A DNA stretch of 64,000 bases from an uncultured Alphaproteobacteria bacterium (GTDB lineage Bacteria > Pseudomonadota > Alphaproteobacteria > HIMB59 > GCA-002718135), in NCBI GenBank assembly GCA_902515745.1, contig CABXWB010000003.1, positions 62,001 to 126,000 on the forward strand. Direction: 5' to 3'. Below are positions 19,606-33,997 of this stretch, piece after piece. The notes beneath the pieces are model-generated. The model saw only the letters and a list, made by a program, of their open reading frames with translations, was not told where the DNA came from and searched no databases. The number at the start of each line of letters is the position of its first letter. Within the stretch, counting starts at the first letter, position 1. A program made the translations under genes and the position numbers.

Positions 19606-20166
19606 ATGATCATAGTTTGTTCTCTTAATGATTTACCGAATGTGTGTGAAAGCATACAGCCCAAATATCTTGTATCAGTAATTGATCCTGGATATGCACC
19701 AGAAACACCCAAGGGTGTAAAAAATCATTTAAAGTTAGGATTTGACGATATTATTGAAATTAGTAGCAATAATAAAATATTTCGATTGAATACTGATGAA
19801 ATACCACAAATTCTACCTGCGGTAGAACATGTAAATTCAATAGCTAATTTTACTTCTTCATATACTTATGATGAAGATATCGTTATTCATTGTTGGTGTG
19901 GTGTCTCAAGATCAATGGCAACAGCTACTTATTTACTATGTAGAGAAAACAAAACTAATATTGAAAATACAATTAAATATATTCGAAATCTTGCACCGCA
20001 TGCAAACCCAAATAAATTATTGATAAATCACTTTGAAAAGAAATTAGATGTTAGCAATCAAATCTCAAAATCATTTTTAAAATTCCCTTATACTAAAGCA
20101 TACGATTGTTCTTCAAATTTTGCACCTGTTACTTTATTTGATATAAAAGACATTGAAAAAAACTAA
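19606..20166 (+). CDS. Protein tyrosine phosphatase-like protein
   Basis: 186-aa protein with the CX5R phosphatase signature HCWCGVSRS (Cys96 to Arg102), as in a group of alphaproteobacterial dual-specificity-phosphatase-like proteins (more often HCWAGISRS). An acid residue loop cannot be placed with confidence. The ATG abuts the T run of the preceding terminator, so there is no room for a leader. Its stop codon overlaps the start of apt by 1 nt. Confidence 0.75.
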   Translation: MIIVCSLNDLPNVCESIQPKYLVSVIDPGYAPETPKGVKNHLKLGFDDIIEISSNNKIFRLNTDEIPQILPAVEHVNSIANFTSSYTYDEDIVIHCWCGVSRSMATATYLLCRENKTNIENTIKYIRNLAPHANPNKLLINHFEKKLDVSNQISKSFLKFPYTKAYDCSSNFAPVTLFDIKDIEKN

Positions 20167-20681
20167 TGAAAGAATACGTTCGAACAATTGCTGATTATCC
20201 TGTTGAAGGAATTCAATTCAGAGATATTACAACATTGTTGCAAAATGCAGGACACTTTAAACAAGTCATTGATGACATGGTAAAACCATGGCAAAATAAA
20301 AAAATAGATGCAGTTTTAAGCATAGAATCACGTGGATTTATTATGGCAGGCGCAATAGCTTATTTTTTAAATGCAGCATTTATCCCTTTGAGAAAACCTC
20401 ATAAACTTCCATTTGATACTTTCAAAACCTCATACGAATTAGAATATGGATCAACTGAAATGCATATTCATACAGATGCCTTAGATGGTCATAAAGATTT
20501 ACTAATTATTGATGATCTTTTAGCAACAGGTGGAACCGCACTTGCGGCAGTAGATTTAATTAAAAAGTTTGAAGACAAAAATATTGTTGGTGCAGGTTTT
20601 ATAATAAATTTACCAGAATTAAGTGGTGATAAAAAACTAAATGAAAAAGGAATTGAGATACATTCTTTAATGGAGTTTTAA
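20166..20681 (+). CDS. apt: Adenine phosphoribosyltransferase
   Basis: 171-aa Apt, converting adenine and PRPP to AMP. Shows YPVEGIQFRDITTLL, the ESRGFIMAGAIA adenine-pocket segment and the PRPP loop LLIIDDLLATGGTA. Length is typical. In this window it could recycle adenine released by MtnP (27707-28591). TAATG overlap with the phosphatase-like gene and direct abutment to the thiolase gene suggest one transcript. Confidence 0.95.
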   Translation: MKEYVRTIADYPVEGIQFRDITTLLQNAGHFKQVIDDMVKPWQNKKIDAVLSIESRGFIMAGAIAYFLNAAFIPLRKPHKLPFDTFKTSYELEYGSTEMHIHTDALDGHKDLLIIDDLLATGGTALAAVDLIKKFEDKNIVGAGFIINLPELSGDKKLNEKGIEIHSLMEF

Positions 20682-24703: not shown

Positions 24704-25045
24704 ATGAAATATAATTTAAACTGTCATTGTGGTGCGGTTCAATTAGAAGTTTTATCAGACTTAGAAATCATTAAACAGTGTAACTGCTCTATTTGTATAA
24801 GAAAAAACGCTAAAATGTGTATGGTCCCTAAAGAAGCAATAAATATTCTTAAAGGAAAAGAAAACTTAACTTCTTACAAATTTAATACAATGATTGCTGA
24901 ACATTTTTTTTGTAAGATTTGTGGCATCTATACTCATCATCATAGGAGAAGTGATCCAAATGGTGCAGCAATAAATATTGGATGTATAGATTCAATTGAT
25001 CCTTTTAAATATGATGCTGACTTTATTGATATGAAAAATAAATAA
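24704..25045 (+). CDS. Small GFA-family zinc protein
   Basis: 113-aa GFA-fold protein with cysteine motifs NCHCGAVQL, QCNCSICIRKN and FCKICGIYTHH. Shorter than the 12494 paralogue. Four nt before iolC, so it is probably the first gene of the iol-mtn operon. Its role there is not known; a zinc- or thiol-adduct-handling function is a guess from the family. Confidence 0.83.
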   Translation: MKYNLNCHCGAVQLEVLSDLEIIKQCNCSICIRKNAKMCMVPKEAINILKGKENLTSYKFNTMIAEHFFCKICGIYTHHHRRSDPNGAAINIGCIDSIDPFKYDADFIDMKNK

Positions 25046-25049
25046 TTTT

Positions 25050-26036
25050 ATGTCGTTTGAATTTTTAATTTCGAAAATTCAAAAAAATAATTTTTTACTC
25101 ATAGGTAGAGCAGGGATTGATATTTATCCTGATCCACCGGGGACTAAAACTGAAAACGCCAAATCCTTTGTTACCCATCTTGGAGGATCTTCTGCAAATA
25201 TGGGTGTCCAATTAACTTTATTTGGAGGTAATTGTAATTTACTGACGAGAGTATCTGATGATGCTTTAGGTAAATTGGCTATTAATCAACTAAATCATTA
25301 TGGCGTTAAAAACAAATTAGTAGAATTTGAAAAAAATGAATCAAGAATTTCTTTTGCTATTGTTGAATCCACAGTTAAAAATCATCAATCAATTATTTAT
25401 AGACATAAAGCTTCTGATTTATTTTTAAATAAAGATGATGTTGAAAATGCTAATATACAAAATTTTGATTGTTTATTAATTACTGGAACTTCTTTAGCAG
25501 CTGAGCCTTCGAGAAGTGCTACTTTATATGCCTTAGATATAGCAAATAAAAATAATATTCCTGTAATTATGGATATTGATTATAGACCATATACTTGGGA
25601 GTCATCAAATAAAGCAAAAGAAGTTTATAATTTAGCAGCAAGTAAATGTAGTGGTGTAATTGGAAATGATGATGAGTTTGGAGTTTTAGCTGGTGATTAC
25701 AACATTGGTTTGGAACATGCTAAAAAATTAGCTAAAAATGTAAGCTTAATTATTTATAAAAAAGGTGAAAAAGGTTCAATTACTTTTGCAATGAACAAAG
25801 TAATTAAAAAAGGAATATTTCCCGTTAAGCCTTTGAAACCAACTGGAGCTGGTGATGCATTTATGGGTTCATTAATAGGATCAATTTTAAAGGATAATGA
25901 TTTAGAAAAATCTATAGAAATAGGCTCAGCCGCAGCAGCTATTGTAGTAACAAAAGTTGGTTGTGCGCCAGCAATGCCAAATTTAAATGAAATTTTAGAG
26001 TTTATGAAATATAATAAAATTAATGAAGGAGAATAA
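25050..26036 (+). CDS. iolC: PfkB-family sugar kinase, IolC-like
   Basis: 328-aa PfkB kinase resembling 5-dehydro-2-deoxygluconokinase, which phosphorylates the product of IolB. Matches include IGRAGIDIYPDPPG (18-31), LGGSSANMG (44-52), VIMDIDYRPYTW (172-183), and the catalytic base Asp269 in PTGAGDAFMG. Followed directly by iolB. Upper inositol genes are absent, so the true substrate may be another deoxy-sugar acid or deoxypentose. Confidence 0.85.
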   Translation: MSFEFLISKIQKNNFLLIGRAGIDIYPDPPGTKTENAKSFVTHLGGSSANMGVQLTLFGGNCNLLTRVSDDALGKLAINQLNHYGVKNKLVEFEKNESRISFAIVESTVKNHQSIIYRHKASDLFLNKDDVENANIQNFDCLLITGTSLAAEPSRSATLYALDIANKNNIPVIMDIDYRPYTWESSNKAKEVYNLAASKCSGVIGNDDEFGVLAGDYNIGLEHAKKLAKNVSLIIYKKGEKGSITFAMNKVIKKGIFPVKPLKPTGAGDAFMGSLIGSILKDNDLEKSIEIGSAAAAIVVTKVGCAPAMPNLNEILEFMKYNKINEGE

Positions 26037-26037
26037 T

Positions 26038-26880
26038 ATGCATATTCCACCATTTGATAATAAGAACAAGCCAATTGTAGATATTGAAGATAGTAGAGTT
26101 CCTTTAAATTATTTTAACATAGTAAAATTAAATAAAGATCAATCTTTTGAATATCAAACACCTGGTTATGAAACATGTATCGTACCTGCTACTGGAACAA
26201 TTAATGTAGAAATTGAAGGAATAAAAGTTGAGTCATTAGGTACTAGAACAGTTGATGTGTGGGATGGAGAGCCAGAAGGTGTTTATGTTCCCTCTAATAC
26301 AAAAGCTCAATTTACATCTTTATTAGATAATTCAGAAATTTTTATTGCTGGCGCAAAGTATGATAAAACTCTTGAACCATTTGCTGTTCGAACAAATGAA
26401 ATTGATTTAGTTCAGTATGGCTCCGATGATACAAAAACTCATAGAAAAATTAAACATATTCTAGGTGCTAAGCATCATGATAAAGTTGGAAGATTACTTT
26501 GTAATGAGCTTTATACAGTAGGGCAGGGAGGTTGGTCAGGTTTTCCACCCCATAAGCATGATACAGATCGTCTACCTGATGAAACTAGACATGATGAAAC
26601 ATATAATTATAGATTTAAACCTAATAATGGATTTGGTTTTCAGATGTTTCAGCAAGTTGATGATAAAGTTGGTAAAGCTGAACATATAATTGATGGCTCA
26701 ACCATCATGATTAGAACGGGCTATCATCCTTGTGTTGTGGCACCAGGGTATGAGATGTATTATTTCACAATTCTTGGTGGACTATCTCAAAGATCGCTTG
26801 TGCAATTTTTTCAACCTGAACATGCATATCAAGTTGAAACCATTCCTGGTATTAAAGATATGATTGCTAAATATAAATGA
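26038..26880 (+). CDS. iolB: 5-deoxy-glucuronate isomerase, IolB-like
   Basis: About 280-aa two-cupin IolB, converting 5-deoxy-D-glucuronate to 5-dehydro-2-deoxy-D-gluconate in the known pathway. The metal site is in GFPPHKHDTDRLPDETRHDE, with a further His in TGYHPCVVAPG. The ATG at 26038 is preferred because AAGGAGAA (26026-26033) lies just before it; an ATG at 26023 is in frame but would sit on that site. Ends in an ATGA overlap with the aldolase. Confidence 0.88.
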   Translation: MHIPPFDNKNKPIVDIEDSRVPLNYFNIVKLNKDQSFEYQTPGYETCIVPATGTINVEIEGIKVESLGTRTVDVWDGEPEGVYVPSNTKAQFTSLLDNSEIFIAGAKYDKTLEPFAVRTNEIDLVQYGSDDTKTHRKIKHILGAKHHDKVGRLLCNELYTVGQGGWSGFPPHKHDTDRLPDETRHDETYNYRFKPNNGFGFQMFQQVDDKVGKAEHIIDGSTIMIRTGYHPCVVAPGYEMYYFTILGGLSQRSLVQFFQPEHAYQVETIPGIKDMIAKYK

Positions 26881-27707
26881 CAGCGGTAAATTTAAAAACT
26901 TTACTTACCAAAGCAAATCGTAATAAATATTCTGTAGCTGGATTAGTCGTAATTAGTTGGGAAGATGCTATTGCTTACACAGAGGCTGCACATGAAACAA
27001 AAATTCCAATTATTTTACAAGCAGGACCTTCTTGTAGACAATATACTCCTGTTTCTATTTTGGGAAAAATGTTTAGACATCTTGCTGAACAAACTAAAAC
27101 GCCTATTTGTTGTCATTTAGATCATGGATTTTCATATGATGAATGTATCGAAGGAATAGAATCTGGTTTTACATCAGTAATGTTTGACGGATCAAAACTT
27201 CCATTAAATAAAAATATCAAAATTAGTTCAAAAATATCAAATATTGCACATAAACATAATATTTCAGTTGAAGGCGAAGTAGGTATAGTAGGCTATCAAA
27301 ATGGCAATACATCTTTTGGAACAGATATTGAGGAAGCAAAAAAATATAGTTTAGAGAGTGGAGTAGATGCTATGGCAATATCAGTTGGTAATACACATTT
27401 ACAACAATCAAAGATAGCAAAAATAGATTATAATAAAATCATAAAAATTCAAAAAATATCCAAACTACCTTTAGTTTTACATGGTAGTAGTGGTATAAAT
27501 TCTAATATGAGAAAAAAAATAGCAAGAAACACAAAAGTAGCTAAATTTAACATAGGCACCGAATTAAGAATAACAGCATGTAAAAGTTTAAGAAAAAGTT
27601 ATAATAAAAAAAAATCAAGTTTTGATAAAATAGAAATAATAAAACCTTCAATAATTGAATTAAAAAAACATACAAAAAAAATAATAAAAAATATTGGGCC
27701 AATATAA
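26877..27707 (+). CDS. iolJ: Class II (zinc) ketose-bisphosphate aldolase, IolJ-like
   Basis: 276-aa class II aldolase of the Fba/GatY/IolJ family. Zinc and catalytic residues are seen in CCHLDHGFSYDEC (His80, Asp82, His83), a later His in VGNTHLQQ and another in LVLHGSSGI. The usual GNxHG reads GNTHL here. Position after iolC and iolB makes 6-phospho-5-dehydro-2-deoxygluconate aldolase (giving DHAP and malonate semialdehyde) the natural guess. FBP or tagatose-bisphosphate cleavage is an alternative. Confidence 0.8.
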   Translation: MTAVNLKTLLTKANRNKYSVAGLVVISWEDAIAYTEAAHETKIPIILQAGPSCRQYTPVSILGKMFRHLAEQTKTPICCHLDHGFSYDECIEGIESGFTSVMFDGSKLPLNKNIKISSKISNIAHKHNISVEGEVGIVGYQNGNTSFGTDIEEAKKYSLESGVDAMAISVGNTHLQQSKIAKIDYNKIIKIQKISKLPLVLHGSSGINSNMRKKIARNTKVAKFNIGTELRITACKSLRKSYNKKKSSFDKIEIIKPSIIELKKHTKKIIKNIGPI

Positions 27708-28591
27708 TGAATGTCTTGGGCTTTATCGGTGGAAGTGGAATTTATAAACTAGAATTTTTAACTGATATAAAAGAACATCAAATTAAATCTTCATTTGGCG
27801 ATCCCTCAGGTCCAATTATTGAAGGTAAAATAGATAATAATACTGTATATTTTTTATCACGCCATGGAGAGGGTCATACTTTGTCACCATCTTCCATTAA
27901 CTATTGTGCCAATATTGATTGTTTAAAACAAGTTGGTGTAACCGATTTGATATCTCTTTCAGCCGTAGGTTCTTTAAAAGATAATTTAAAACCAGGTACA
28001 TTTGTTATTGTTGATCAGTTTATAGATAGAACAATAAATAGAAAAAAAAGTTTTTTTGATAAAGGAATAGTTGCTCATGTTCCTATGGCTCATCCAACAT
28101 GTGAAGTTTTGATGAATTTATCAAAAAATATATGTGAAAATATTAGAATCAATTATTCATTTGGCGGTACTTATCTTGCAATGGAAGGGCCTCAGTTTTC
28201 AACTTATGCTGAGTCAAATCTTTATATTGATTGGGGTTGTGATGTTATAGGAATGACAAATATGCCAGAAGCAAAATTAGCAAGAGAAGCGGAAATTAGA
28301 TATTGTTCTATTTCCATGGTTACAGATTATGATTGCTGGCATCCAGATCATGATAAAGTAGATTTAAGTATGATTATAAAAACCTTAAATGATAATGTTG
28401 ATAATTCAAAAAATTTTATTAAAAATTTTAGCTCAAAATACTATGAAGGTGCATCTTTTGAAAATGATAACACATCAAATATTTTAGATACATCTATAAT
28501 TACAAAAAAAGAATTTTGGGATAAAGACTTAGAGAATAATTTAACCAATATATTAAAAAGATATAAGAAAAATTCTAATGCTAGTAAATGA
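27707..28591 (+). CDS. mtnP: S-methyl-5'-thioadenosine phosphorylase
   Basis: 294-aa purine-nucleoside phosphorylase of the MTAP type. It splits 5'-methylthioadenosine (and often 5'-deoxyadenosine) with phosphate into adenine and the 5-substituted ribose-1-phosphate. Motifs are GFIGGSGIY, LSRHGEGH, LSAVGSL, AMEGPQFST and the VTDYDCWH base-specificity loop. Starts on the last base of the aldolase stop codon (TAATG) and overlaps mtnA by 14 nt. Confidence 0.92.
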   Translation: MNVLGFIGGSGIYKLEFLTDIKEHQIKSSFGDPSGPIIEGKIDNNTVYFLSRHGEGHTLSPSSINYCANIDCLKQVGVTDLISLSAVGSLKDNLKPGTFVIVDQFIDRTINRKKSFFDKGIVAHVPMAHPTCEVLMNLSKNICENIRINYSFGGTYLAMEGPQFSTYAESNLYIDWGCDVIGMTNMPEAKLAREAEIRYCSISMVTDYDCWHPDHDKVDLSMIIKTLNDNVDNSKNFIKNFSSKYYEGASFENDNTSNILDTSIITKKEFWDKDLENNLTNILKRYKKNSNASK

Positions 28592-29657
28592 TAAACATTT
28601 AACAACTATTTGGTATGATCAACCTAAAGAACTTGTAAAAATAATAGATCAAAGGTTTCTACCATTTGAATTAAAGATTGTAGAATTAAAAACACTAGAA
28701 GATTTTTGTTTTGCAATTAAAGAAATGCAAGTTAGGGGCGCACCCCTAATAGGTGTTACTGCTGCATATGGAATGTATGTAGCATCTAAAACTACTAAAA
28801 ATTTTTCAGAATTAGAAAAAGCAGGTGATAGCCTTAAGTCAACAAGACCTACAGCAGTTAATTTATCCTGGGCAGTAGATAAAATTATCACTGAAATTAA
28901 AGATATGGAAAAATCCAACTTACAGGAAATAATTCTTTCAATAGCTAACGAGATCAGAGATCAAGATATAATTAATTGCAAAGCTATAGGTGAAAATGGT
29001 TCTAAACTTATTGAAAATATTTATAAAAAAACGCAAAAAAAAGTAAATGTTTTGACTCACTGTAATGCTGGGTGGTTAGCTGCTGTTGATTGGGGAACCG
29101 CTTTAGCACCAATATTTATTGCAAATCAAAAAAAAATCCCGATACATGTTTGGATTGACGAAACCAGACCTAGAAATCAAGGTTTCAGTCTTACAGCTTG
29201 GGAATTAATGCATGAAAAGATTGAAAATTCATTAATCGTAGACAACGTTGGCGGTCATTTAATGCAAAATGGCATGATAGATCTTTGTATAACCGGAACA
29301 GACAGAACCTCTTTAAATGGTGATGTTTGTAATAAAATTGGCACATATTTAAAGGCTCTAGCTGCAAAAGATAATGAAATTCCTTTTTACGTTGCAGCAC
29401 CAATTTCTAGTATAGATTTTAATATTAAAAATGGAGTAAAAGAAATACCTATAGAAGAAAGAGATCCAGACGAAGTATCCATTATTGAAGGTATTGATGA
29501 AAATAATAATAGAAAGAAAATTAAAATTATACCTGAAGGTTCAAACTGTAAGAACTTTGCCTTTGATATAACTCCAGCAAAATATATTACTAAATTGATT
29601 ACAGAAAAAGGAGTTGTAGATAGTAATGAAGAATCTATAGGTGGATTAAAAAATTAA
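28578..29657 (+). CDS. mtnA: Methylthioribose-1-phosphate isomerase
   Basis: 359-aa MtnA, isomerising 5-methylthioribose-1-P (or 5-deoxyribose-1-P) to the ribulose-1-P form. Catalytic Cys162 in THCNAGWL and Asp242 in TGTDRTSLNGDV, plus MQVRGAPLIGV and NKIGTY, agree with the family. The ATG lies within the last 14 nt of mtnP, so translation is coupled. One nt separates it from the aldolase-dehydrogenase fusion. Confidence 0.94.
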   Translation: MLVNDKHLTTIWYDQPKELVKIIDQRFLPFELKIVELKTLEDFCFAIKEMQVRGAPLIGVTAAYGMYVASKTTKNFSELEKAGDSLKSTRPTAVNLSWAVDKIITEIKDMEKSNLQEIILSIANEIRDQDIINCKAIGENGSKLIENIYKKTQKKVNVLTHCNAGWLAAVDWGTALAPIFIANQKKIPIHVWIDETRPRNQGFSLTAWELMHEKIENSLIVDNVGGHLMQNGMIDLCITGTDRTSLNGDVCNKIGTYLKALAAKDNEIPFYVAAPISSIDFNIKNGVKEIPIEERDPDEVSIIEGIDENNNRKKIKIIPEGSNCKNFAFDITPAKYITKLITEKGVVDSNEESIGGLKN

Positions 29658-29658
29658 A

Positions 29659-31671
29659 ATGAACAATGAGTGGAAAGAGAGTTTAGCTAAAAAATATATC
29701 AAAGAATATCAGTTAAAGAAAGTCAGCAAAGATTTAGCATTAAGAATATACTCAACACATTTACTAGGAAGTAATCCAGAACTTGTTTTACATGGTGGAG
29801 GCAATACATCTGTAAAATCAATTAAAAAAAATTTATTTGGAAAAGAGAACGATGTACTTTTTGTCAAAGGAAGTGGATGGGATATGTCTAATCTAAATGA
29901 AAGAGGTTTACCAGGTCTGTATCTTGATCCTTTACTGAAAACTCTATCCTTAAAAAAAATGAGTGATGAAAAAATGGTTAATTATTTGAGATTAAACTTA
30001 CTTGATTCAAGTTCTCCTAATCCATCAATTGAAACTCTTTTACATGCTTATTTACCATTTAAATATGTTGATCATACACATTCAAATGCGATTTTAAGTT
30101 TAGTCAATCTAGATAATTCAAAAGAGATTTTAAATAAAATTTATAAAGATAAAATTGCAATAGTTCCTTATGTAATGCCAGGATTTGAACTTGCTAAATT
30201 ATGTCATCAGGTAATTTCAAACAATCATAAAGTTGAAGGATTAATGCTTTTAAATCATGGCATTTTCACTTTTGGAAGTTCAGCAAAACAAAGTTATGAT
30301 AGAATGATTAAGCTTGTAACATTAGCTGAAAATTTTTTAAATAAGCAAAAAAAATTAATAAAATATAATATTTATAACAAAAAAATAGATTTAACTGATG
30401 TTCAATTATATATTAGAAATTTATACCATTCTATTACAAACAAAAGATGGATAATAAAATTTAATAATAAGGTTGAAGATGTAAAATTTACAAATCGAAA
30501 AGATTTGTTTAATTTATTTAATAAAGGACCTGTTACACCAGATCATGTTATTAGAATAAAATCAGAACCACTAATTATACCTAACAAACATTTATCATCG
30601 AGCAAAATGTTATCTAATTATATTGATGCATATATTAAAAAATATAAAAATTATTTTAAAAAATATAAAAAAAATATTATAAATTCCAAAATTGCTGATC
30701 CTTTACCAAGAATTATTATTTTAGAAGGAATAGGTTTTCTTTCAATGGGTCTTAATAAAAAAGAAATGCAAGTTTCCTACGATATATTTGATGCAATGAA
30801 AAAAGTTATAATTAAAGCGAATTTAGTTTCAAAATTTAAATCAATTAACAATAGAGATATTTTTAAAATGGAATACTGGCCATTAGAAAGAGCAAAATTG
30901 AATAATAAAAATTCAAAAAAATTTAATGGAAATGTTGCAGTGATTACAGGTGGCGCTGGTAAAATTGGAAGCGCGATTGCAAATAAATTTATAAATGAAA
31001 ATATCGAAGTTATACTTTTAGATAAAAACTTTAAAAATCTTGATAAAAATATTAAAAAAAAATGTCTATGTATTGAATGCGATTTAACTAATAATTCTCA
31101 AATTAATAAAGCGTTAAATAAGATATTAAAATTATTCGGTGGTATAGATATTCTAATAGCAAACTCTGGTGCAGCATTTCATGGTAGTATGCTAAATGTA
31201 AAAAAAGACATTTTAGAAAAAAGTTTAGAGGTAAATTTTTATAGTCATCATAACATTGTCCAAAAAATTGCAAATATTATGGTATCACAAGGTTTTGGAG
31301 GTTCAATTTCTCTTAATTTGTCAAAACAATCTATAAATCCTGGTAAGGATTTTGGACCATATGGTATTGCAAAAGCTAGCTCATTGTTTTCTATGAAACA
31401 ATATGCTTTAGAATTTGGAAAATATAACATTCGAGTTAATGGAATTAATGCTGATCGTATAAAAAGTGGTTTATTAACTGATCAGTTTATTAAAGAAAGA
31501 GCAAAAGCAAGAAATATGTCTTCAACTGAATATTTAAATAATAATTTACTTCAAAAGCAAGTAACTGCAGAAGATGTTGCTGAAGCATTTTTTGCACAAT
31601 TATCTTTTGAAAAAACAACTGGGAATATTATTACTGTTGATGGCGGTAATATTGAAGCTAGTTTAAGATAA
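29659..31671 (+). CDS. Class II aldolase / short-chain dehydrogenase fusion
   Basis: 670-aa bifunctional protein. The N-terminal AraD/RhaD-like aldolase (about 25-400) shows GGGNTSVK, KGSGWDM, Glu125 and zinc ligands His139, His141 (DHTHSNA) and His200 (LNHGIFTFG). The C-terminal SDR (about 424-670) shows TGGAGKIG (430-437), NSG (502-504) and YGIAK (Tyr568, Lys572). The architecture matches rhamnulose-1-phosphate aldolase/dehydrogenase fusions. Directly after mtnA, it could cleave a 5-substituted ribulose-1-P to DHAP plus an aldehyde and then oxidise or reduce the aldehyde; this is inference. Confidence 0.85.
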   Translation: MNNEWKESLAKKYIKEYQLKKVSKDLALRIYSTHLLGSNPELVLHGGGNTSVKSIKKNLFGKENDVLFVKGSGWDMSNLNERGLPGLYLDPLLKTLSLKKMSDEKMVNYLRLNLLDSSSPNPSIETLLHAYLPFKYVDHTHSNAILSLVNLDNSKEILNKIYKDKIAIVPYVMPGFELAKLCHQVISNNHKVEGLMLLNHGIFTFGSSAKQSYDRMIKLVTLAENFLNKQKKLIKYNIYNKKIDLTDVQLYIRNLYHSITNKRWIIKFNNKVEDVKFTNRKDLFNLFNKGPVTPDHVIRIKSEPLIIPNKHLSSSKMLSNYIDAYIKKYKNYFKKYKKNIINSKIADPLPRIIILEGIGFLSMGLNKKEMQVSYDIFDAMKKVIIKANLVSKFKSINNRDIFKMEYWPLERAKLNNKNSKKFNGNVAVITGGAGKIGSAIANKFINENIEVILLDKNFKNLDKNIKKKCLCIECDLTNNSQINKALNKILKLFGGIDILIANSGAAFHGSMLNVKKDILEKSLEVNFYSHHNIVQKIANIMVSQGFGGSISLNLSKQSINPGKDFGPYGIAKASSLFSMKQYALEFGKYNIRVNGINADRIKSGLLTDQFIKERAKARNMSSTEYLNNNLLQKQVTAEDVAEAFFAQLSFEKTTGNIITVDGGNIEASLR

Positions 31672-32088
31672 GTGTTATTAAAATTATTAGAAAAACTTGG
31701 AAGGAAGAAAATTGTTCTAGATAGAGGACCATCTCATCCAGAATTTCATAATGCAAAACCATGGATGGAAAGATATTACCTTTTATTTAGAAAAAGGCCA
31801 AAATGGTTTCCATTTAATATTCTGATTCATAAAATGTTAGATGATGACCATGGTGAAGGAGTTCATAATCATCTTTGTCCATATATAACAATTATTTTAA
31901 AAGGCGGTTATTGGGAAACAACGAATAAAGGTAAATTTTGGAGATCTCCAGGCTACATTGGTTTTAGATCTGCAGATCATTTACATAGAGTTGACTTAAA
32001 ACCAAATACAAATACTATGACGTTATTTATTCCAGGTCCCTTTGGGTTTAGAAAAACTAAAAGAGCTGATTATAAAACAAAAATTTAA
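31672..32088 (+). CDS. Cupin-like protein of unknown function
   Basis: 138-aa protein, start GTG immediately after the stop codon of the fusion gene, so coupled translation is likely. A single cupin fold is suggested by DDDHGEGVHNHLCPYITIILKGGYWE (His pair) and a later His in FRSADHLHRVDL. No resemblance to MtnD acireductone dioxygenase is evident. Last gene of the iol-mtn operon. The substrate is unknown. Confidence 0.7.
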   Translation: MLLKLLEKLGRKKIVLDRGPSHPEFHNAKPWMERYYLLFRKRPKWFPFNILIHKMLDDDHGEGVHNHLCPYITIILKGGYWETTNKGKFWRSPGYIGFRSADHLHRVDLKPNTNTMTLFIPGPFGFRKTKRADYKTKI

Positions 32089-32101: not shown

Positions 32102-32836
32102 TTAAGTTATACCGTCATATATCAACTTACATCCACTTAAAAAAAGTAAAACATAAACAATATTAAAAAATAATTTTTCTGGAATTCTTTTTTGCAGAAA
32201 ATATCCAATTAAAACACTAATAAAAGCTAGTGGAAGCAAATAGAGAGAAATCATAAGATTTGAAGATGCCAATAATCCAACGTAATAATAAGGAACCAAT
32301 TTTACTAGATTTATAACCATAAATGCTAAGGTCATGGTTCCTATAAATGAAATTTTATCAAGCTTTAATGGCAGCATATAAAAATTAATAGGAGGGTTTC
32401 CTGCATGAATTAAAAAACTTGTATATCCTGCTACAGATGACCAAAAGTATCCTTTAAATCTTGTTGGTTTTAGTAAATAATTATTTTTCTGAATAAATGA
32501 AACAAGAACAAAAATAATTGAAATTATACCTACCATTATTCTTATCTGATCTTCATTGGTAAATTCAAAAGTGAGGGTTCCAAATAAAATACCAATTATA
32601 GATGCAGGGATTATAATTTTTAAAATACTATTTATCCATTTTTTCCAATACAAGTAGATTGCTGAAAAATCCATTATAATTAAAAGTGGCAACAAAATAC
32701 CAGCAGCTTGCAGAGGACTCATAGCAAAAGACATTACAGGTACTGCTAACATCGCTATTGGCCCAGGCACACCACCTTTAGAGATACCAAATACAAAAAC
32801 ACCTAAGGATGCAAAAAAATAAAAATAAAAATCCAT
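32102..32836 (-). CDS. TauE/SafE-family membrane exporter
   Basis: 244-aa membrane protein with seven or eight hydrophobic segments. It starts FASLGVFVFGISKGGVPGPIAMLAVP, the TauE/SafE signature, with GYTSFLIHAGNPPINFYMLP at mid-length. Relatives export sulfite, sulfoacetate or other organic anions. Its ATG abuts the stop codon of the PLP lyase gene, so the two form an operon, perhaps tied to organosulfur handling. Confidence 0.85.
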   Translation of the reverse strand: MDFYFYFFASLGVFVFGISKGGVPGPIAMLAVPVMSFAMSPLQAAGILLPLLIIMDFSAIYLYWKKWINSILKIIIPASIIGILFGTLTFEFTNEDQIRIMVGIISIIFVLVSFIQKNNYLLKPTRFKGYFWSSVAGYTSFLIHAGNPPINFYMLPLKLDKISFIGTMTLAFMVINLVKLVPYYYVGLLASSNLMISLYLLPLAFISVLIGYFLQKRIPEKLFFNIVYVLLFLSGCKLIYDGIT

Positions 32837-33997
32837 TTAATTTAAAACTTTTAATGCACTTTTTATGTCTTTTATTTGATCATCAATATCTTCCAGCCCA
32901 CAATACAATCTTATTAAAGTTCCAGTATTTTTATTTTTAAATGTTCTTTTATCTAGTGGAGGAAAGGTAATGAGACTATCAAAACCACCCCAACTGTATC
33001 CTAATTTAAAAACTTTAAGTTTGTTAAAAAACTTTTCAATTTGTTTATTTGAATATTTCTTTTTTAGCATGAATGAAAATAAACCCGAGCTTCCAGAGAA
33101 ATCTCTTTTCCATATTTTATGGTTCTTAGTATGAGGTAATGCTGGATGAAATACATCTGCTACAAGACCATGTTCTAATAAATATTTTGCCAGTAACAAT
33201 GCATTTTTTTCAATTTCTCTCATTCGAATTTCAAGTGTTGGCAATCCTCTAATGGCCAAATATACTTCATCTGATCCAGGACATATTCCTAAAGTTTTTG
33301 CAGCAGTTCTAATTTTTCTAGCATATTTTTTATTTGATGAAACAAAACCGATTAATACGTCCGAGTGACCATTTATATACTTAGTCCCCGCATCGATTAT
33401 AATGTCTATTCCCAGTTTAATTGGATTGCAAAATAATGGTGATGCCCATGTATTATCCATTACAGTTGGTATATTATTTTTTTTAGCTATATTTGTTATG
33501 AAAGGTATATCAATTATATCAAATGTAGCAGTTCCAGGAGATTCTAAATAAATAAGTTTTGTTTTTTTATTTATTAATTTTTCAAAATTATTAATTTTAT
33601 TTATTGGATGAAAATATTTTATTTTTACTTTGTACTGTTTAAGAATATTTTCACAAAAAGTTCTTGTTGGGCTGTAGACACTATCATTTATTAAAACTTC
33701 ATCTCCAGATTTTAATATAGCAAAAAAAGGAATTATTATTGAAGCAAGTCCTGAAGGGGACAAGACAGTATCATTACAATGATATAATTCTGTGATACTA
33801 TCTTCTAATTGTTTGTGAAAAGGATTTTGATTAATTCCGTAAAATGTTCTTCTATCATCTGCATTTTTAATATCATTTAAGTAATCCTGATAACTGTTAA
33901 AAATCATAGTCGATCCTTTGTATGTACCAGGATTAATGAAACCTTTTTGTTCAAGAGGATTTCTTCCTATTTTTGTAAGTTTTGTTTTAATTTTCAC
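32837..33997 (-). CDS. metC: Cystathionine beta-lyase-like PLP enzyme
   Basis: 386-aa Cys/Met-metabolism PLP enzyme. The Schiff-base Lys is in DAGTKYINGHSDVLIG, and VMDNTWASPLFCNP is the PLP-ring segment. The N-terminal RNPLEQKGFINPGTYKGST and ESPGT features fit cystathionine beta-lyase (cystathionine to homocysteine). A gamma-lyase or methionine gamma-lyase role is not excluded. Convergent with the iol-mtn operon through the exporter gene. Confidence 0.85.
   Translation of the reverse strand: MKIKTKLTKIGRNPLEQKGFINPGTYKGSTMIFNSYQDYLNDIKNADDRRTFYGINQNPFHKQLEDSITELYHCNDTVLSPSGLASIIIPFFAILKSGDEVLINDSVYSPTRTFCENILKQYKVKIKYFHPINKINNFEKLINKKTKLIYLESPGTATFDIIDIPFITNIAKKNNIPTVMDNTWASPLFCNPIKLGIDIIIDAGTKYINGHSDVLIGFVSSNKKYARKIRTAAKTLGICPGSDEVYLAIRGLPTLEIRMREIEKNALLLAKYLLEHGLVADVFHPALPHTKNHKIWKRDFSGSSGLFSFMLKKKYSNKQIEKFFNKLKVFKLGYSWGGFDSLITFPPLDKRTFKNKNTGTLIRLYCGLEDIDDQIKDIKSALKVLN

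Follow-up and report, generated by a model that had tools for sequence, protein, structure and literature searches.

A conserved locus of HIMB59-lineage Alphaproteobacteria that sets inositol genes ahead of genes for 5'-deoxynucleoside salvage

Why should genes resembling the lower end of myo-inositol catabolism be packed against genes for the salvage of 5'-methylthioadenosine (MTA) and 5'-deoxyadenosine? The question is raised by the locus iolC-iolB-iolJ-mtnP-mtnA-aldolase/SDR-cupin (SDR, short-chain dehydrogenase), at positions 25050-32088 (+) of a 64,000-nucleotide stretch of DNA (contig CABXWB010000003.1, positions 62,001 to 126,000; hereafter the window) from an uncultured marine alphaproteobacterium of the HIMB59 lineage. 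A first-pass annotation of the window had described a tight seven-gene unit, and the open reading frame coordinates and junction sequences bear this out: all seven frames lie on the same strand, with overlaps or gaps of 0-1 nucleotides at the junctions. The same order was found again in at least 20 related genomes, and the operon, unusual as it is, is both real and conserved. We consider it likely to be a composite of two known catabolic modules, each ending in dihydroxyacetone phosphate (DHAP) and an aldehyde, and not a new pathway; the earlier picture of two branches both leading to DHAP is probably right in outline. What is new is the arrangement and the modular exchange of known pathways, while the chemistry itself is known.

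The inositol half

Gene families were assigned with NCBIfam and Pfam profiles at curated cut-offs. The absence of iolG, iolE and iolD reported by the first-pass annotation holds for the window but not for the genome, an assembly of 1.62 Mb in 42 contigs that is 90% complete. IolE (G000:C2:28670-29533, 374 bits, cut-off 290), IolD (C1:164720-166540, 763 bits, cut-off 715), IolG (C2:103522-104511, 386 bits, cut-off 355) and MmsA/IolA (C12:25704-27134, 675 bits, cut-off 448.5) are all encoded on contigs other than that of the operon, and the only IolB in the genome is the operon's own. Because the other enzymes are present elsewhere and there is just this one IolB, iolCBJ would complete a scattered inositol route, most probably being its lower half, moved to a position in front of an MtnP-type DHAP shunt. 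IolG, IolE and IolD would begin the breakdown of myo-inositol and the trio would finish it, with IolB converting 5-deoxyglucuronate to 2-deoxy-5-ketogluconate (DKG), IolC phosphorylating this to DKG-6-phosphate, and IolJ cleaving the product to DHAP and malonic semialdehyde, the latter to be taken by MmsA/IolA. Compared with bacterial myo-inositol catabolism at large (iolG-E-D-B-C-J-A), the enzyme types are alike, but here the genes are spread over several contigs and iolCBJ is detached and placed ahead of the mtn genes.

The window IolB aligns with structure 2QJV across the HKHD...E and GYHP motifs, and the window IolC is without the C-terminal DUF2090 aldolase domain. In other Alphaproteobacteria the iolC-iolB-iolJ trio sits within iolD/iolG operons, and a relative without iolB, iolD, iolE or iolG (G109) nevertheless retains mtnP-mtnA-aldolase/SDR-cupin-TauE-metC. 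Together with the full iolG/E/D/A set elsewhere in the genome, these observations speak against a branch for deoxy-sugar acids independent of inositol, which the first-pass annotation had envisaged; the simplest candidate for the deoxy-sugar acid is 5-deoxyglucuronate derived from inositol.

Several points weigh against the composite of inositol and salvage modules that we favor. Both IolB and IolC score below their NCBIfam equivalog cut-offs (Table 1). This IolB type also co-occurs with a canonical IolB in some other Alphaproteobacteria, about 3-17 kb apart in three cases, and the trio could thus act on another isomer of inositol or another sugar acid. Candidate sites in a promoter and terminator scan of the locus were no commoner than chance, so that co-transcription is suggested by the gene spacing, and most of the genomes surveyed below are incomplete single-cell assemblies. 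The low scores and the co-occurrence would both fit a substrate other than the 5-deoxyglucuronate derived from myo-inositol; G321, G380 and G418 encode this IolB type beside a canonical IolB, with a fused IolC-DUF2090 in the same region. We nevertheless regard a different substrate as unlikely, since the window genome has no other IolB and encodes IolE, IolD and IolG above cut-off. The IolB of an inositol operon in the sister genus (G001) is likewise under the cut-off, at 169.4 bits against 205, a value that may simply leave out this subfamily, and an outgroup IolC orthologue reaches 319 bits to TIGR04382 (cut-off 300). As for the three genomes with both IolB types (loci L255 in G321, L256 in G380 and L257 in G418), their fused IolC-DUF2090 route with canonical IolB, alongside a divergent IolC-IolB-IolJ trio, suggests two parallel inositol-type routes.

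The MTA and 5'-deoxyadenosine half

MTA and 5'-deoxyadenosine are waste products of S-adenosylmethionine reactions. The window MtnP aligns with the MTA phosphorylases in the PDB and retains the TDYDCW motif, MtnA aligns with 1T9K and retains the catalytic Cys and Asp regions, and the aldolase domain of the aldolase/SDR fusion aligns with 3M4R. Canonical methionine salvage can be set aside, as the acireductone dioxygenase MtnD (PF03079) was found in none of 110 family genomes. From the sequences, MtnP, MtnA and the aldolase read as the MtnP variant of the DHAP shunt, with the substrate of the fusion a predicted one. MtnP would split MTA or 5'-deoxyadenosine with phosphate into adenine and 5-(methylthio/deoxy)ribose-1-phosphate, MtnA would isomerize the latter to the ribulose-1-phosphate, and the aldolase domain would cleave this to DHAP and (methylthio)acetaldehyde. 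Reduction of the aldehyde is the probable role of the fused SDR and would pull an unfavorable aldol cleavage forward. In the published 5-deoxyribose salvage route the cleavage equilibrium favors the sugar phosphate (PMC6079011), and we infer that an aldehyde-consuming SDR fused to the aldolase makes sense for this reason. Adenine would be recovered by Apt, whose gene lies upstream of the operon and keeps the same place in relatives; Apt could take up adenine released by the operon's enzymes.

Both the MtnP and the MtnN/MtnK entry variants of the DHAP shunt have been published (PMC10986504). The systems of Rhodospirillum rubrum and Rhodopseudomonas palustris (MtnP-MtnA-Ald2) and of E. coli ATCC 25922 (MtnN/MtnK; PMC10986504, PMC12632272) share with the present one an enzyme that splits MTA or 5'-deoxyadenosine, MtnA, a PF00596 aldolase and the absence of the later salvage dioxygenase. 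The window locus differs in that its aldolase is fused to an SDR, its operon is shared with iolCBJ, and close relatives carry the phosphorylase and nucleosidase forms as alternative alleles of a single locus. The drdKIA system for 5-deoxyribose disposal in Bacillus thuringiensis (PMC6079011) likewise combines an isomerase with a PF00596 aldolase to give DHAP and acetaldehyde, but has a kinase where the window locus has a phosphorylase; the window genome encodes no kinase of that type above the cut-off. The 670-residue fusion has the domain order and family of the rhamnulose-1-phosphate aldolase/SDR fusions (RhaD_aldol-ADH, PRK08324), but it scores 412 bits to the RhaD equivalog, under the cut-off of 568, and fusions of its type are partnered with mtnP-mtnA or mtnK-mtnA, not with rhamnose genes. 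A second fusion type, 46-50% identical, is found at L173 (G043) and L185 (G103) in what appear to be sugar operons, among genes for Gfo/Idh, PfkB kinase and dihydroxyacetone kinase.

Exchange of the block between iolB and the cupin gene

The IolB loci of 73 readable relatives were surveyed, taking the stretch from iolB to the cupin gene as a slot. The slot exists in three states, which are never mixed: iolJ with a gene for a 176-residue nucleosidase (state A, 42 genomes); iolJ-mtnP-mtnA-fusion (state B, 23 genomes including that of the window, a few cut at contig ends); and iolJ-mtnP-mtnA (state C, 8 genomes). A chance fusion in one genome, or an assembly error, was ruled out by the same order occurring in many independent single-cell genomes. 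The 176-residue protein belongs to the PNP/MTAN superfamily, and its GTAG, DMEAYS and ISDYAN motifs align with MTA/S-adenosylhomocysteine nucleosidases. Elsewhere in the class its relatives adjoin apt in 4 of 11 cases (directly beside apt at L190, L193, L197 and L198), an association that supports a predicted release of adenine.

The iolJ gene goes with the slot and not with its upstream neighbors. In the main clade, IolJ identity is 97% among genomes of one state but 65% across states, whereas IolB and IolC are no closer within a state than across states, and DNA identity falls off at the iolB/iolJ junction. The IolJ tree splits A from B/C with support of 98/91 and needs a single state change, against 17 on the trees of iolC+iolB or of the upstream acyl-CoA dehydrogenase (23 and 19, respectively, with shuffled labels) and 13 on the metC tree. 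The G106 locus is a cassette replacement: its backbone matches that of its genus mates at 91-99% identity and its iolJ at only 67-68%, while iolJ and the nucleosidase reach 93% and 86% identity with their counterparts in another genus. Among sister species the waste-recycling half and the inositol aldolase gene are thus repeatedly swapped, as one piece, for an alternative of a single salvage gene.

The outgroups hold the iol and mtn modules apart. In the sister genus (G001), iolC-iolB-iolJ-HpaI has iolE and a Gfo/Idh gene as neighbors, and about 13 kb separate it from iolD, iolG and a sugar ABC transporter; mtnP-mtnA-aldolase is on a different contig near apt. G103 has mtnP-mtnA-cupin. In the simplest history, an ancestor of genera g1 and g4 would have gained iolCBJ at a point between the GFA gene (Table 1) and mtnP. 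The trio would have left an inositol operon and joined an mtnP-mtnA-aldolase-cupin operon of greater age before g1 and g4 split, and the stretch that starts with iolJ and stops short of the cupin gene would afterwards have been traded many times between phosphorylase and nucleosidase forms.

The neighborhood might carry no functional meaning, being two operons joined by rearrangement and kept by descent and by recombination in conserved flanks. The separate modules of the outgroups fit this, as does the lack of iol-mtn neighbors outside the family in the class sample, and linkage by itself would explain why iolJ tracks the slot. We think this possible but doubtful: the fused order survives at least 13-17 state changes of the block by the flanking-gene trees, both common block types encode an enzyme cleaving 5'-deoxyadenosine/MTA, and the tight packing suggests that co-expression has been kept. 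The first-pass annotation had reasoned that a complete iolG/E/D set elsewhere in the genome, together with a linkage not conserved in relatives, would point to a chance fusion; such a set was found, but the iol-mtn linkage turned out to be conserved, so that its case for chance fusion is borne out only by half.

Further evidence on the salvage half comes from mtnK, present in 11 family genomes, where its neighbors are a nucleoside hydrolase-like gene and a sugar ABC transporter. All four A-state genomes with mtnK carry a second mtnA (65-67% identical) and a second fusion (56-57%), on the mtnK contig right behind the transporter in three of them and on a separate contig from mtnK in G006 (A state). 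No second mtnA-fusion was found in the seven B-state genomes with mtnK, two of whose mtnK contigs end early. The difference (4/4 with the nucleosidase, 0/7 with the shunt; Fisher p = 0.003) argues that the mtnA-fusion pair of the window locus does the same job as the pair beside mtnK, namely the DHAP shunt. The shunt proposed by the first-pass annotation is thus upheld by the lack of MtnD and by the provision of mtnA-aldolase elsewhere, in mtnK-bearing genomes, exactly when the slot is without it. The accessory operon of mtnK, nucleoside hydrolase-like gene and transporter (L174, L175, L181, L215-L223), in which the presence of mtnA-aldolase/SDR depends on which state the iol locus is in, looks like a system for taking up external methylthioribose, 5-deoxyribose or nucleosides and using them.

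DKG-6-phosphate, 5-deoxyribulose-1-phosphate and methylthioribulose-1-phosphate have one common skeleton, and the iolJ type switches together with the salvage module. IolJ, and perhaps IolB and IolC too, might therefore have been recruited into 5'-deoxynucleoside salvage. In the nucleosidase state, free 5-deoxyribose or methylthioribose would be isomerized by IolB, phosphorylated by IolC and cleaved by IolJ; in the genomes with only mtnP-mtnA, IolJ would stand in for the absent aldolase. In favor of this, mtnK was not detected in 37 of 41 nucleosidase-state genomes, and the eight C-state genomes have no aldolase fusion in the slot, three of the eight having no strong fusion homologue at all. 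The fusion homologues of 47-50% identity in mtnP-mtnA-only genomes lie in other sugar operons (with PfkB kinase, Gfo/Idh and dihydroxyacetone kinase genes) or by unrelated genes, not with mtn genes. But iolJ alleles about 70% identical in DNA recombine poorly, and hitch-hiking with the module is expected anyway; the eight fixed differences between the IolJ types include none in the catalytic motifs, which are the same in both. All the other inositol genes are in the genome, giving the trio an ordinary job, and the nucleosidase-state genomes with mtnK bring their own mtnA-aldolase, as though IolJ were insufficient. The 3R,4R stereochemistry of a ribulose-type substrate has, moreover, been inferred for FucA/DrdA-type, not FBA-type (fructose-bisphosphate aldolase), enzymes (PMC6079011). 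We judge recruitment improbable. Its fuller form, in which IolB-IolC-IolJ has a second, isomerase-first job on the free 5-deoxyribose or 5-methylthioribose made by the nucleosidase form and IolJ cleaves all three 5-substituted 5-deoxypentulose phosphates as their shared aldolase, seems to us a long shot; if true, the trio would be an isomerase-then-kinase alternative to DrdK/MtnK salvage, with enzymes shared with inositol breakdown.

Flanking genes and biological meaning

The GFA gene ends 4 nucleotides ahead of iolC and is beside it in nearly all relatives; it may be the first gene of the unit, which could then count eight genes. The iolB frame is also open from an ATG at 26023, which would overlap iolC by 14 nucleotides, but the inner ATG at 26038 is probably the start, leaving a 1-nucleotide gap, because it has AAGGAG six bases upstream and gives the MHIPP... 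start common to relatives.

Table 1. Genes of the locus and its upstream flank, in window coordinates
Feature	Position	Strand	Profile match or remark
apt, adenine phosphoribosyltransferase	20166..20681	+	TIGR01090 198 bits, cut-off 186
GFA-family (glutathione-dependent formaldehyde-activating-like) protein	24704..25045	+	PF04828, 52 bits
iolC, PfkB-family 5-dehydro-2-deoxygluconokinase-like kinase	25050..26036	+	TIGR04382 293.4 bits, cut-off 300
iolB, IolB/KduI-family aldose-ketose isomerase	26038..26880	+	PF04962 252 bits; TIGR04378 167.6 bits, cut-off 205
iolJ, class II FBA-type aldolase (presumed DKG-6-phosphate aldolase), 'BC' allele	26877..27707	+	PF01116 236 bits
mtnP, MTA / 5'-deoxyadenosine phosphorylase	27707..28591	+	PRK08931 403 bits; TIGR01694 274.5 bits, cut-off 274.85
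mtnA, methylthioribose-1-phosphate isomerase	28578..29657	+	TIGR00512 410 bits, cut-off 279
Fusion of N-terminal PF00596 class II aldolase (putative Ald2/DrdA-like role) and C-terminal SDR (PF13561)	29659..31671	+	PRK08324.1-6 771 bits, cut-off 639
Small cupin-like protein, 138 residues	31672..32088	+	kept in all slot states and in outgroups

The cupin-like protein is 80-86% identical between genera and always adjoins mtn or nucleosidase genes. It has no Pfam or NCBIfam match and no PDB relative by profile, and a single-sequence fold prediction was unreliable (mean pLDDT 43). Genes for a TauE/SafE-type exporter and a cystathionine beta-lyase-like protein (32102-33997) come after the cupin gene in all states and outgroups, and they may be connected with the sulfur of MTA. 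A 2-oxoglutarate-Fe(II) oxygenase-like gene (PF13759, 24035-24655), on the strand opposite to the operon, is there in some relatives and missing in others.

The iolJ-mtnA combination was not found in the literature searched, which covers few subscription papers. Measurements have shown dissolved MTA in the water of the open ocean (PMC8957919), and little work has dealt with what becomes of 5'-deoxynucleosides in streamlined marine bacteria. The locus is a natural experiment, in which close relatives differ in having a phosphorylase, isomerase and aldolase or a single nucleosidase in one slot, with the inositol aldolase changing too. It makes testable whether one class II aldolase serves both inositol and S-adenosylmethionine waste, and which form pays off where.

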